From contig QHYE01000024.1 in assembly GCA_003224055.1 (NCBI GenBank), forward strand, positions 1 through 64,000: a stretch of 64,000 nt of DNA. The letters run 5' to 3'. Source of the stretch: Acidobacteriota bacterium. GTDB lineage: Bacteria; Acidobacteriota; Terriglobia; Acidiferrales; UBA7541. The notes below the pieces were generated by a model. That model made no database searches. It had not been told where the DNA came from and worked only from the letters and a program-made list of their open reading frames with translations. The position numbers and the translations under genes were made by a program. Shown here one piece after another: positions 59,996 to 64,000 of the stretch; the stretch's first letter is position 1, and each line of letters begins with the position of its first letter.

Positions 59996-61771
59996 ATGAA
60001 GCTAAGGCTCTATTTGGCGACAGGCGCGATTCTGGTCTCGGGCGGCTTATCCGGTTGCGAGGATGCCGGGAAAAAAACCGTGCAGGCGCGCGTCCCTGCG
60101 CTGGCGCCCAAGGCCATCGCCGCCGCCCAGGCCCCGCCGGAACTTCCAGCGCTCCCGCTGGCAAACCCGGCCCGGCGGCCGCCCGTCTCCCTGTTGCCTC
60201 CCGTTCCCGCGGGCAAGGAGTACCTCATCCAGAAGGTCCAGGAAAAATTCGCTTCCGGCGAGCAGAACTTCAAGGCCGGGCATCTCGAAGCCGCGCGCAA
60301 GGATTTTGACGATGCGGTCGATTGGATTCTGGAGAGTGGCTACGACCCGAACGGCGACCCCCGGCTGAGTGAGCTGTTCCACCGCGTTGTCGACAGCGTT
60401 TACGCTTACGAGTTGCAGGCGTTCCGCGCCGGCGATGGATTCAGCGAAGCCCCCGCCGTCCCTGCGGCGATTGACGAAGTCGCGGAGATGACCTTCCCGG
60501 TGGACCCGAGCCTGAAGGGCCGCGCTGAGGAAGCGGCCAAAAACATTTCTCATGACCTGCCGCTGACCGTGAACGACGAAGTTCTGTCCTTTCTCAATTT
60601 CTTTCAGACCCCGCGAGGGCGCGCCATCGTGGAAACCGGGCTGAACCGCGCCGGCCGCTACCGCGAAATGATTTCGCGCGTGCTGCGCGAAGAGGGCGTC
60701 CCTCAGGATTTGATCTACCTGGCGCAAGCGGAGAGCGCGTTCCAGCCGCTGGCTCTTTCGCGCGCTGGCGCCCGCGGCATCTGGCAGTTCGTGGCCTACC
60801 GCGGCCAGGAGTATGGGCTCCGTCACACGTGGTGGATTGACGAACGGCAGGACCCCGAGAAAGCCACGCGGGCTGCCGCCCAGCACCTGCGCGATCTTTA
60901 CAGACTTTTCGGCGACTGGTACCTGGCCATGGCCGCCTACAATTGCGGCCCGGGTAACGTGCAAAAAGGCATCGAGCGCACCGGCTACGCGGATTTCTGG
61001 GAGCTCTACAAACGCAAAGTCCTCCCGCGCGAGACGAAAAACTACGTGCCCATCATCATTGCGCTGACGCTCATCGCCAAGGATGCGGCCCACTACAATA
61101 TTCAAGCGGATCCGGAAGCGCCTGTCCCGACCGACGTGGTGAAGCCGGGCAGGGCCATCGACCTGCGATTGGTGGCGGAAACGATCGACGTGGACGTCAC
61201 CACGCTGCGCGCGCTCAATCCTTCGCTCTTGCGCATGGCGACTCCGGACGACCCTTCCTTTGAATTGCGCCTCCCGCAGGGCACGGCGACAAGGTTCTCC
61301 GCCGAAATCGCGGACATTCCTCCGGACAAGTGGGTCAGCTGGCGCCGACACCGTGTGGAGGCTGGCGAAACGCTTACGTCCATCGCGAAGAAATACCGTG
61401 TGACGGCGGCGGCCATCGCGGATGCCAACAACCTGGAACGCAGCGCGGCGCTCGGCGCGGGTGAGAAGTTGATCATCCCCGCGATGCTGCCGCAATCGGA
61501 AACGAAGCGCCGTCTGGTCAGTTATCGCGTGCGGCGAGGGGAGACGCTGGGTGGCATTGCCGATCGTTTCAGCGTGGACACCGACGACATCCGCAAGTGG
61601 AACCGGCTGAAGTCCAACAGGGTGAGCCGCGGCATGGTCTTGCGCATTTACACCATCGGCGGCGCTCCGGAAGCTACCTCGGCCCGGGCGCGATCCAGGT
61701 CCAAAAGGAAATCACAGAAATCGCCGGCGGGCAGTGCAGCGGCAGGGGCGCTGGCTTCAAACCGCGACTAA
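59996..61771 (+). CDS. MltD-type membrane-bound lytic transglycosylase with two LysM domains
   Basis: 591 aa from ATG 59996, with lipoprotein signal LVSGGLSGC; upstream ATGs at 59915 and 59969 add no signal. After a Pro/Ala linker, the catalytic SLT domain holds YLAQAESAFQPLALSRAGARGIWQFV (catalytic Glu in AES) and AMAAYNCGPGNVQKGI. Two LysM domains follow at about 475-525 (HRVEAGETLTSIAKKYRVTAAAIADANNL) and 535-580 (YRVRRGETLGGIADRFSVDTDDIRKWN), then a basic tail. It cleaves peptidoglycan to anhydro-muropeptides from the outer-membrane side. Confidence 0.94.
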   Translation: MKLRLYLATGAILVSGGLSGCEDAGKKTVQARVPALAPKAIAAAQAPPELPALPLANPARRPPVSLLPPVPAGKEYLIQKVQEKFASGEQNFKAGHLEAARKDFDDAVDWILESGYDPNGDPRLSELFHRVVDSVYAYELQAFRAGDGFSEAPAVPAAIDEVAEMTFPVDPSLKGRAEEAAKNISHDLPLTVNDEVLSFLNFFQTPRGRAIVETGLNRAGRYREMISRVLREEGVPQDLIYLAQAESAFQPLALSRAGARGIWQFVAYRGQEYGLRHTWWIDERQDPEKATRAAAQHLRDLYRLFGDWYLAMAAYNCGPGNVQKGIERTGYADFWELYKRKVLPRETKNYVPIIIALTLIAKDAAHYNIQADPEAPVPTDVVKPGRAIDLRLVAETIDVDVTTLRALNPSLLRMATPDDPSFELRLPQGTATRFSAEIADIPPDKWVSWRRHRVEAGETLTSIAKKYRVTAAAIADANNLERSAALGAGEKLIIPAMLPQSETKRRLVSYRVRRGETLGGIADRFSVDTDDIRKWNRLKSNRVSRGMVLRIYTIGGAPEATSARARSRSKRKSQKSPAGSAAAGALASNRD

Positions 61772-62022: not shown

Positions 62023-62325
62023 ATGGATATCGAGAAGGACGGTTTTGAAGACGACAACGAACTATCCCGGCTGGAGGACGAGGAGCTGGGCGGCGAGACC
62101 GAAGAGATCGTGGAAGAGGAAGAAGAGCTGGTGATCGTGGGAGAAGAGCCGGAAGAAGTGGTGCCCGCGCCGAAGCCCGCGTCGAAGCCCGCCGCAAAGA
62201 AACGCGCCAAGAAAGCGGGAAAGAAGAAACCCGCGCGAAAAAAGGCGGCGAAGAAAGCGAAGCTGAAAAAGAAGGCCGGCAAGAAAAAAGCCAAGAAAGC
62301 ATCGAAGAAGAAAAAAAGGCGGTAA
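62023..62325 (+). CDS. Acidic/lysine-rich histone-H1-like small protein
   Basis: 100 aa from ATG 62023 (CACGGGAGGATGGA upstream). Residues 1-48 are very acidic (DEELGGETEEIVEEEEEL); residues 55-100 are Lys/Ala-rich with KKxAKK repeats (KRAKKAGKKKPARKKAAKKAKLKKK), like the C-terminal tail of bacterial histone H1-like proteins. It probably binds nucleic acid through the basic tail, with the acidic head as a modulator. Low complexity makes homology unreliable. A strong terminator follows at once. Confidence 0.75.
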   Translation: MDIEKDGFEDDNELSRLEDEELGGETEEIVEEEEELVIVGEEPEEVVPAPKPASKPAAKKRAKKAGKKKPARKKAAKKAKLKKKAGKKKAKKASKKKKRR

Positions 62326-62359
62326 GCGCGCTTCACGCTGGCAAGATTCTCTTGGCGGA

Positions 62360-62391
62360 GGCCGGGCCTTGGGTCCCGGCCTTTTCCTTTT
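62360..62391 (+). terminator. Rho-independent terminator
   Basis: GGCCGGG (62360-62366) pairs with CCCGGCC (62375-62381) and is followed by TTTTCCTTTT, 34 bases after the stop of the Lys-rich gene. Confidence 0.75.
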
Positions 62392-62535
62392 GTGGAATTC
62401 TGCCTCCCACTCTGGAATCGGCCGGGCCGCGCTGCTTTCCCGACCGGGATATGCAGTCTTCCCATTCAGGAATCGACTCGCCAGGGCCCAACTCGCGCTT
62501 GCCCAAAGCAATAAGTACCGCTAGGATAATTCGCC

Positions 62536-63354
62536 ATGTTGCATGCGCTGGAGCAGATACGCCGGATGCGTGGGGGAGCGCCATCGCACCTGATGCGTTG
62601 CTCCGACGGCCTCTACTACGTGGTGAAGTTCCAAAATAATCCGCAGCATCGCCGCATTCTGGTCAATGAAATGCTTGGAACCAAACTGGCGGCTCGGCTG
62701 GGCTTGCCGACCGTTCCGGTGGCGATCGTAGAGGTGTCCGAAGAGTTGATCCGGCTGACGCCGGAATTGACGATGGAACTGCCGCGCTCGCGGATCCCTT
62801 GCCAGCCCGGCCCGCAATTTGGATCGCGCTATCCCGGAGACCCGCGGCAGCTGACGCTGCACGATTTCCTTCCCGACGAACAGCTGCGCGAGGTGGAAAA
62901 CCTGCACGCCTTCGCGGGGATGCTGGTTTTCGACAAGTGGGCCTGCAACACCAACGGCCGCCAGACGGTATTTTTTCGCAGGCAAAATGAGGCAGCGAAC
63001 GACGCGGCGGCGGTGCGCTATGAAACGCGGATGATCGACCAGGGCTTTTGTTTTAATGCCGGCGAGTGGAATTTTCCTGACGCGCCGCTCCGGGGTTTGT
63101 ACGCCCGCAATCGCGTCTACCAGGGTGTCACCGGGATGGAATCGTTCGCGCCGTGGCTCGAGCGCCTGGAAAGCGGAATGACCGAGCGCGTCTTGGACGA
63201 AGTCAGCCGGGAGATTCCTCCCGCGTGGTACGAGGATGACTACGACGCGCTGCTGCGGCTGCTCGAACAGCTTCATCGCCGCCGTTCACGGGTCCCAGAA
63301 CTGATTCTCGAAGCCAAACGAACCAATCGGCAGCCGTTTCCGAACTGGGTGTGA
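62536..63354 (+). CDS. HipA-like kinase-fold protein
   Basis: 272 aa from ATG 62536. It aligns by eye with the HipA-like domain family: YYVVKFQNNPQHRRILVNEMLGTKLAARLGLP (nucleotide-binding strand with the Lys of VVKF), then AGMLVFDKWACNTNGRQTVFF (catalytic-loop region) and MIDQGFCFNAGEWNF (metal-loop-like). In canonical HipA the catalytic loop has Asp and Asn (GxTDxHxxN); here the Asp position appears to be Asn (NTNGRQ), so activity is uncertain. It is followed 3 bases later by a DUF3037 gene. No HipB-like HTH lies upstream, so it is not a classic HipBA system. Confidence 0.85.
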   Translation: MLHALEQIRRMRGGAPSHLMRCSDGLYYVVKFQNNPQHRRILVNEMLGTKLAARLGLPTVPVAIVEVSEELIRLTPELTMELPRSRIPCQPGPQFGSRYPGDPRQLTLHDFLPDEQLREVENLHAFAGMLVFDKWACNTNGRQTVFFRRQNEAANDAAAVRYETRMIDQGFCFNAGEWNFPDAPLRGLYARNRVYQGVTGMESFAPWLERLESGMTERVLDEVSREIPPAWYEDDYDALLRLLEQLHRRRSRVPELILEAKRTNRQPFPNWV

Positions 63355-63357
63355 ACC

Positions 63358-64000
63358 ATGATTGAAACTTCTGACCATCAAGAAAACGCGGAACCGGCAG
63401 GTTCAGAAAGAGCCTGCGCCTACCGCGTTCTGCGGTACTCACCGAACCTGGTCCGCGACGAGTGGGTGAATATCGGCGTGCTGCTCTTCGATCCGCTGAC
63501 CGGCGAACGCCGGTTGCGCATGATCGAAGAAGAGGATGAGTTCCGGCGCGTGCGGCGCCTTCATCCCGGGGCCGACGAATTGCTCCTCCGTGCGATTCGC
63601 GATGATCTGGAAGACCGGTTTCAATCGGCATCCGCCAACGGCGGGAAGGGCCAAGCCGGCAATTGGCAGCAACTCCTGGCCAAGTGGGATGAGACGCTCT
63701 CCAATGCTTTGCAGCTCGCTCCGCAGAAAGGCGTCTTTGCCTCGGACCTGGATGCCGAACTGGAGCGGCTGTATGGCGACCATGTCGCCCCGCAGCGCGC
63801 CGCCAGCCGCATGGGCGCACCCGGCAGCCGCGCGGTGGTGCGCTCGTACTGCTCGCAGGTCTTCCGGCAGGCCCGCCTGTGGGAGCGGCTGGAAAAATCA
63901 GTTCGCGCCGAGCAGTTTACCTTTCCGGGCGACCCCATGCGCCTCGACTACAGCTACCGCCGCAACGGCACGCGCGGATTCGTGCAGACGCTCTCCGTCA
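63358..64000 (+). CDS. DUF3037-like protein, truncated by window edge
   Basis: At least 214 aa from ATG 63358, absent from the track because it runs off the edge. The core ACAYRVLRYSPNLVRDEWVNIGVLLFDPLTGERRLRM is typical of DUF3037 proteins. It starts 3 bases after the HipA-like stop, so the two are cotranscribed; this pairing recurs in many genomes, as far as I recall. Function unknown. The C-terminus is outside the window. Confidence 0.85.
   Translation, partial: MIETSDHQENAEPAGSERACAYRVLRYSPNLVRDEWVNIGVLLFDPLTGERRLRMIEEEDEFRRVRRLHPGADELLLRAIRDDLEDRFQSASANGGKGQAGNWQQLLAKWDETLSNALQLAPQKGVFASDLDAELERLYGDHVAPQRAASRMGAPGSRAVVRSYCSQVFRQARLWERLEKSVRAEQFTFPGDPMRLDYSYRRNGTRGFVQTLSV

Follow-up and report, generated by a model that had tools for sequence, protein, structure and literature searches.

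A HipA_2 kinase gene followed directly by a DUF3037 gene is the arrangement of an anti-phage family described under the names HipAD, DS-6 and PDC-M66. In Retron-Sda1, defence is lost when the kinase of the HipA-DUF3037 pair is deleted, and deletion of DUF3037 is toxic (PMC12548924), while mutation of a catalytic residue of DS-6A abolishes defence (PMC13092281). In Legionella HipT, mutation of the catalytic Asp or of the DFG-type Asp ended both ATP hydrolysis and toxicity (PMC10653801). In the HipAD family, DUF3037 itself takes the antitoxin's role. The same two genes occur in the record of Escherichia phage PhiR5_1, annotated as HipA toxin and HipD antitoxin, and this HipA retains NADRT and the subsequent Asn.

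We analysed a stretch of 64 kb, hereafter the window, from the 4.5-Mb genome of a soil acidobacterium of the class Terriglobia. The window opens a contig of 122.5 kb (G000:C109) and ends inside such a pair. The anti-phage kind of HipA-DUF3037 pair is already known; the Terriglobia branch differs from it in being near-core, in having lost catalytic residues, in its link to a phage cluster and, in the window's genus, in the combination of conserved flanks and pair with no phage genes.

Composition and active site of the pair

The HipA-like gene (62536..63354, + strand) encodes a HipA_2-family kinase-fold protein of 272 aa that is predicted to be catalytically degenerate; it matches Pfam HipA_2 (PF20613) at an E-value of 5e-15, a match above the family's cut-off. 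Its TGA stop codon (63352-63354) is followed by a 3-base gap, ACC, and by the ATG of the DUF3037 gene at 63358, as checked in the sequence. The N-terminal 214 of the 253 aa of the DUF3037 protein lie in the window (63358..64000, + strand; PF11236, E-value 1e-15; PDC-M66B, 5.5e-11), and the contig continues, so that the right flank that the initial annotation had left to be completed now includes the whole ORF, with its stop at contig position 64119, 119 bases beyond the window. The ORF coordinates and the PF20613 and PF11236 matches agree with that annotation's description of a HipA-like gene and a DUF3037 gene three bases apart; cotranscription, which it presumed, fits the short gap, although no promoter was identified for the pair.

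PADLOC profiles assign the HipA-like protein to PDC-M66A and its partner to PDC-M66B, with window-type HipA proteins scoring 32-36 bits against PDC-M66A and canonical HipA proteins 81-98 bits. The window pair resembles HipAD/DS-6/PDC-M66 in having the same two families in the same order, a minimal HipA_2 kinase fold and DUF3037 directly downstream, and from these sequence matches it is very likely a member of the broadly defined HipA-DUF3037 family. The mechanism, which had been called unstudied, can no longer be so described for the family, as HipAD/DS-6 has been validated as anti-phage in two papers. With HipBA and HipBST the pair shares a HipA-superfamily kinase fold and a partner gene in an operon, but it has neither an HTH HipB nor a HipS, its catalytic residues are lost and its partner is DUF3037. 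ORFs and Pfam profiles gave no HTH gene adjoining the window pair, in agreement with the earlier remark that an HTH antitoxin is absent.

For the active site, 94 HipA proteins of the window type were compared with 28 canonical HipA_2 members. Asn140 (codon 62953..62955, + strand; index checked) corresponds to the catalytic Asp (D309 of HipA) and aligns with the invariant Asp of the canonical motif NVDRTxRN; this position is Asn in 77/94 and Asp in 17/94 window-type orthologues, whereas it is Asp in 28/28 canonical proteins. Five residues further on, Val145 (62968..62970, + strand) occupies the place of the Mg-binding Asn, where all 94 window-type orthologues have V, I, L or A and the canonical motif has Asn. 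The ATP-binding Lys31 (62626..62628, + strand; conserved in 95/95 window-type and 28/28 canonical proteins), the alphaC Glu45 and the DFG-type metal-binding Asp168 (63037..63039, + strand; 94/94 aligned) are retained in the alignment, leaving the protein with three of the five residues of an active kinase and with the catalytic Asp and Mg-binding Asn missing. The Asn noted at the catalytic position in the initial annotation is thus real, and a private mutation or sequencing error was ruled out, the change being common to several orders; as both the HipA-DUF3037 pair and the Asn recur in most relatives, they are not due to chance. DUF3037 accompanies 76/77 N-type and 9/17 D-type HipA proteins; a tie of the N-type to the DUF3037 partner was dropped because the independent changes are too few for a test.

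Around these positions the pocket has a strongly conserved signature peculiar to window-type HipA (CNxNGRQ and IDQGFCFNxGEWNFPD). An AlphaFold model of the window protein reached a pLDDT of 95, and its best PDB matches in Foldseek were Fam20C, Fam20A, CtkA and HipA. The atypical kinases Fam20C/Fam20A and CtkA are the closest folds, at TM-scores of only ~0.5, and the likeness is one of fold; a PDB sequence search with the HipA_2 or DUF3037 profile returned nothing useful. We consider it quite probable from the residues lost that the protein has kept its kinase fold but is impaired at the phosphotransfer site, and binding of ATP would be likely given those retained. The 17/94 orthologues with the catalytic Asp and the several changes on the tree suggest that Asn and Asp may be partly interchangeable, and a catalytically odd kinase can nonetheless act through other chemistry.

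Compared with its relatives, the window DUF3037 is without ~35 residues near the C-terminus, a gap that is in frame and lies between two TTCGCC repeats (L002:2062-2120; contig 64061-64119). This could be a real deletion or an assembly error, and the window copy might be impaired with these residues gone. A full-length relative was modelled instead (pLDDT 91), the C-terminal half of which resembles the PD-(D/E)XK nuclease domains of Cdn1, Can2 and BstEII (E-values of about 1e-4 to 1e-2). No clear catalytic motif was seen in this nuclease-like half, so the model would modestly suggest that the C-terminal half of DUF3037 may bind DNA.

Distribution and genomic setting in Terriglobia

The HipA-like gene is present in 343/399 Terriglobia genomes (341/395 good ones) and in 127/143 genera, mostly as a single copy. 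Some families lack it, as do several of the largest genomes in the window's genus, a number of which hold DUF3037 remnants with stops. Remnants or broken frames of DUF3037 were observed in larger genomes of this genus (G006:C126, G011:C434 and G030:C141). Purifying selection acts on both genes (dN/dS 0.04-0.18), with values of 0.07 and 0.17 within the genus, window pair included. The HipA tree gives full support to the split between the window type and canonical HipA_2, and on it the catalytic position has changed between Asp and Asn several times (4 to 6 by parsimony). Taken together with the tree, the profile matches point to a Terriglobia-specific, vertically inherited branch of HipAD (PDC-M66).

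The pair lies among conserved housekeeping genes, and no defence island of the kind that the initial annotation had suggested looking for was found nearby. Upstream lies an SLT/LysM lytic transglycosylase gene (59996..61771, + strand; Pfam SLT 2.6e-26, LysM), which serves by synteny as a marker of the flank, and then a gene for a bipolar protein of 100 aa with an acidic N-terminus and a Lys/Ala-rich, H1-like C-terminus (62023..62325, + strand). Downstream of DUF3037 are a convergent response-regulator/SpoIIE phosphatase gene and a 2-oxoacid dehydrogenase operon (E2, E1b, E1a, LipB, LPD), and the order in the window's genus is SLT, bipolar gene, HipA, DUF3037 and E2 operon. In other families the pair adjoins cdaA-glmM or recR; in four loci of another family (L051, L129, L141 and L154), a CdaA-like diadenylate cyclase and GlmM, named by eye and not by profile, follow the pair. 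Prevalence and flanks together rule out a mobile defence island: the gene is found in most of the class at conserved flanks, where a patchy, mobile or island-borne distribution would be that of HipAD/PDC-M66. A plasmid search for HipA gave only two distant matches.

The bipolar gene is upstream of window-type HipA on the same strand in 49/93 unique loci and was not seen elsewhere in those loci; it was observed there across families (L055, L071, L074, L153 and L191-L218), as well as in most loci of the family f7. It is unlikely to be a member of the operon, as ~210 bp and a terminator-like hairpin (62357..62394, + strand; L002:358-385, 10 pairs, then a T-rich tail) separate it from HipA in the window, and the terminator-like sites as a set are not clearly above chance.

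The packaging cluster of relatives and its relation to the window

In Acidobacteriaceae a terminase gene is upstream of the pair and a portal gene follows wherever the contig extends far enough. On the window's side of the tree, three loci (L099, on a contig of G416, L100 and L128) also have terminase upstream of the pair, with a portal gene after it where the contig is long enough, and G036 has the portal downstream with TerL inverted, 8 kb upstream. The full set reads TerL, HipA, DUF3037, portal, protease-like, capsid-like, adaptor and two further conserved genes, the cluster also having a tail-spike-like gene, and in some genomes the protease-to-p341 block instead lies upstream of TerL. The TerL, portal and adaptor calls are profile matches, and the capsid and protease calls go by position and size. 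A portal match was found in 90/299 class genomes, nearly all Acidobacteriaceae, and in 58/62 listed genomes with both genes the portal is 0.9-2.4 kb downstream of HipA. HipA divergence tracks that of TerL (Mantel r 0.89) and of the portal (Mantel r 0.84). Purifying selection also acts on the terminase, portal and capsid-like genes (dN/dS 0.02-0.19), the GC of the phage genes is host-like, and no integrase was among the eleven proteins scanned in the G310 region.

These head genes are conserved, single-copy and vertically inherited under purifying selection, and the cluster may be a gene transfer agent or an old prophage. It resembles RcGTA in being a phage head cluster of terminase, portal, protease-like, capsid-like and adaptor genes that occurs family-wide in single copy, has host-like GC and is under purifying selection; unlike RcGTA, the window's genus retains HipA-DUF3037 alone, and particle formation and packaging of host DNA would be putative traits of its relatives. 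We know of no gene transfer agent described with HipA-DUF3037 between terminase and portal, and the arrangement was not found in titles and abstracts of the open-access literature on gene transfer agents in Acidobacteria or on terminase with HipA.

A 'prophage Cluster 153' is described as prophages in six acidobacteria by Eichorst et al. 2018 (PMC5900883), and its Ca. Koribacter region at 5.15-5.19 Mb would fit the portal at 5,171,359 of G472 (5,650,368 bp; presumed Koribacter). The passages of that paper that deal with Cluster 153 mention neither vertical inheritance, HipA-DUF3037 nor a gene transfer agent. Unlike in the packaging clusters of other relatives, the G472 pair is away from the portal, at 1.48 Mb; on G472:C1 the pair is at 1481306 and the portal at 5171359, 3.7 Mb apart, so this linkage is broken. 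In addition, 21 IMG/VR contigs classed as viral (L251-L271) have the HipA-DUF3037 pair flanked by TerL on its upstream side and by the portal on its downstream side; they may stem from viruses, or from pieces of host DNA that were counted as viral owing to the packaging cluster.

Neither TerL nor portal was found in the window genome (G000). The flanks of the cluster, on the other hand, recur there: the E2 operon is downstream in 16/23 cluster-bearing regions, the SLT and bipolar genes are upstream of the cluster in G310, G416 and G036, as in the window, and in G416 and G310 the bipolar gene lies between SLT and the phage cluster, although SLT and E2 flanks were not both seen in every cluster-bearing genome. 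As the downstream E2/LipB/LPD genes and the upstream SLT and bipolar genes are common to cluster-bearing genomes and the window, the two appear to be the same locus, and common ancestry of the window locus with the phage-cluster locus is likely from this synteny. Two independent captures would hardly account for an intercalated order that recurs, with lineage-matched sequences, on either side of the HipA tree.

We therefore lean towards a domesticated, probably non-phosphorylating HipA-DUF3037 complex that was once part of a gene-transfer-agent-like locus and outlasted the loss of its phage genes. The HipAD branch in Terriglobia would have ceased to act as toxin-antitoxin defence, with the HipA-like protein most likely binding nucleotide without efficient phosphotransfer and serving as a switch or scaffold in complex with DUF3037. 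The pair would once have resided at the same chromosomal site in a phage-derived cluster, between terminase and portal, where the natural guess is that it controls or licenses packaging; for cluster-bearing relatives we put forward such a packaging role tentatively. In the window's genus the phage genes would have been lost and the pair retained under selection. In its broadest form, which we offer as a speculation, Terriglobia would have a gene transfer agent as old as the class, with a HipA-derived pseudokinase and a DNA-binding DUF3037 partner as regulators inside its packaging module, and the window's lineage would have kept the regulators and dropped the particle genes.

An alternative history has the housekeeping arrangement as ancestral, with a phage cluster capturing or surrounding the pair later, so that the pair of the window's lineage was never phage-related. 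That the SLT and bipolar genes accompany HipA also in families without phage genes, and that the order HipA, DUF3037, E2 is found in both of the branches into which the HipA tree first divides, would be expected under such a history. A single insertion, however, is unable to place TerL on one side and the portal on the other, and the intercalated order, with lineage-matched HipA, TerL and portal in both Acidobacteriaceae and the window's family, demands that the arrangement was built once before the split, or twice. We consider later capture of a host pair unlikely, and weaker than an ancestral cluster. A working HipAD toxin-antitoxin, in which infection would lead the HipA-like kinase to arrest the cell and DUF3037 would restrain the kinase, draws on the PDC-M66 membership, on a gene order equal to that of validated HipAD, on the need for HipA and the toxicity without DUF3037 in the validated system, and on the occurrence of the same two genes in PhiR5_1. 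It is quite unlikely for the window pair, in which the catalytic Asp and Mg-binding Asn kept by PhiR5_1 HipA are gone, given that a kinase-site mutation abolishes DS-6 defence; near-core presence, vertical inheritance and housekeeping flanks also argue against it, as does a whole family (f7) with solo HipA and no adjacent DUF3037. Of the toxin-like, phage-defence and regulatory roles proposed by the initial annotation, the first two are thus left with the PDC-M66A/B (HipAD/DS-6) family match, and it is the regulatory module that survives.

The strongly conserved pocket with its own signature and the several-fold switching between Asn and Asp would also suit an enzyme with altered chemistry, such as SelO-type nucleotide transfer, rather than a pseudokinase. 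We give this little credence: the Mg-binding Asn is missing from all orthologues, there is no positive sign of another activity, and the likeness to atypical kinases is by fold. Decay to a relic without function could account for the ~35 residues missing from the window DUF3037 and for the stop-bearing remnants found in larger genomes of the genus, but is very improbable because purifying selection within the genus, window pair included, is strong for both genes.

If the reading of a domesticated complex is true, it describes a route by which a toxic anti-phage kinase pair becomes tamed, through loss of catalytic residues, fixed inheritance and either incorporation of the genes into a domesticated phage or their survival after it. 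A further implication is a phage-derived packaging cluster that is conserved in a lineage dominant in soil but poor in genetic tools; the HipA-DUF3037 pair would be the sole part of this cluster retained in some genera. Two questions become testable: whether gene transfer agents exist in Acidobacteriota, and what job a dead HipA does beside a terminase.

Further HipA_2 and DUF3037 genes

In the family f7, HipA is solo, without adjacent DUF3037, and has Asp in 28/28 loci with a readable motif. Unlinked DUF3037-profile matches are present in 59/61 of its genomes; these were rejected as a separated partner, as most of them proved to be LexA-like S24 peptidases whose N-terminus resembles DUF3037. 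Such fusions were observed in L222-L249 and are near mutY in some loci. Elsewhere in the window's genome there is another HipA_2 copy, which is divergent and stands alone, with no DUF3037 (G000:C23:77807-78019; L060). Many Acidobacteriaceae (L161-L190) also carry a canonical HipA_2-DUF3037 pair with the NVDRTxRN motif intact.
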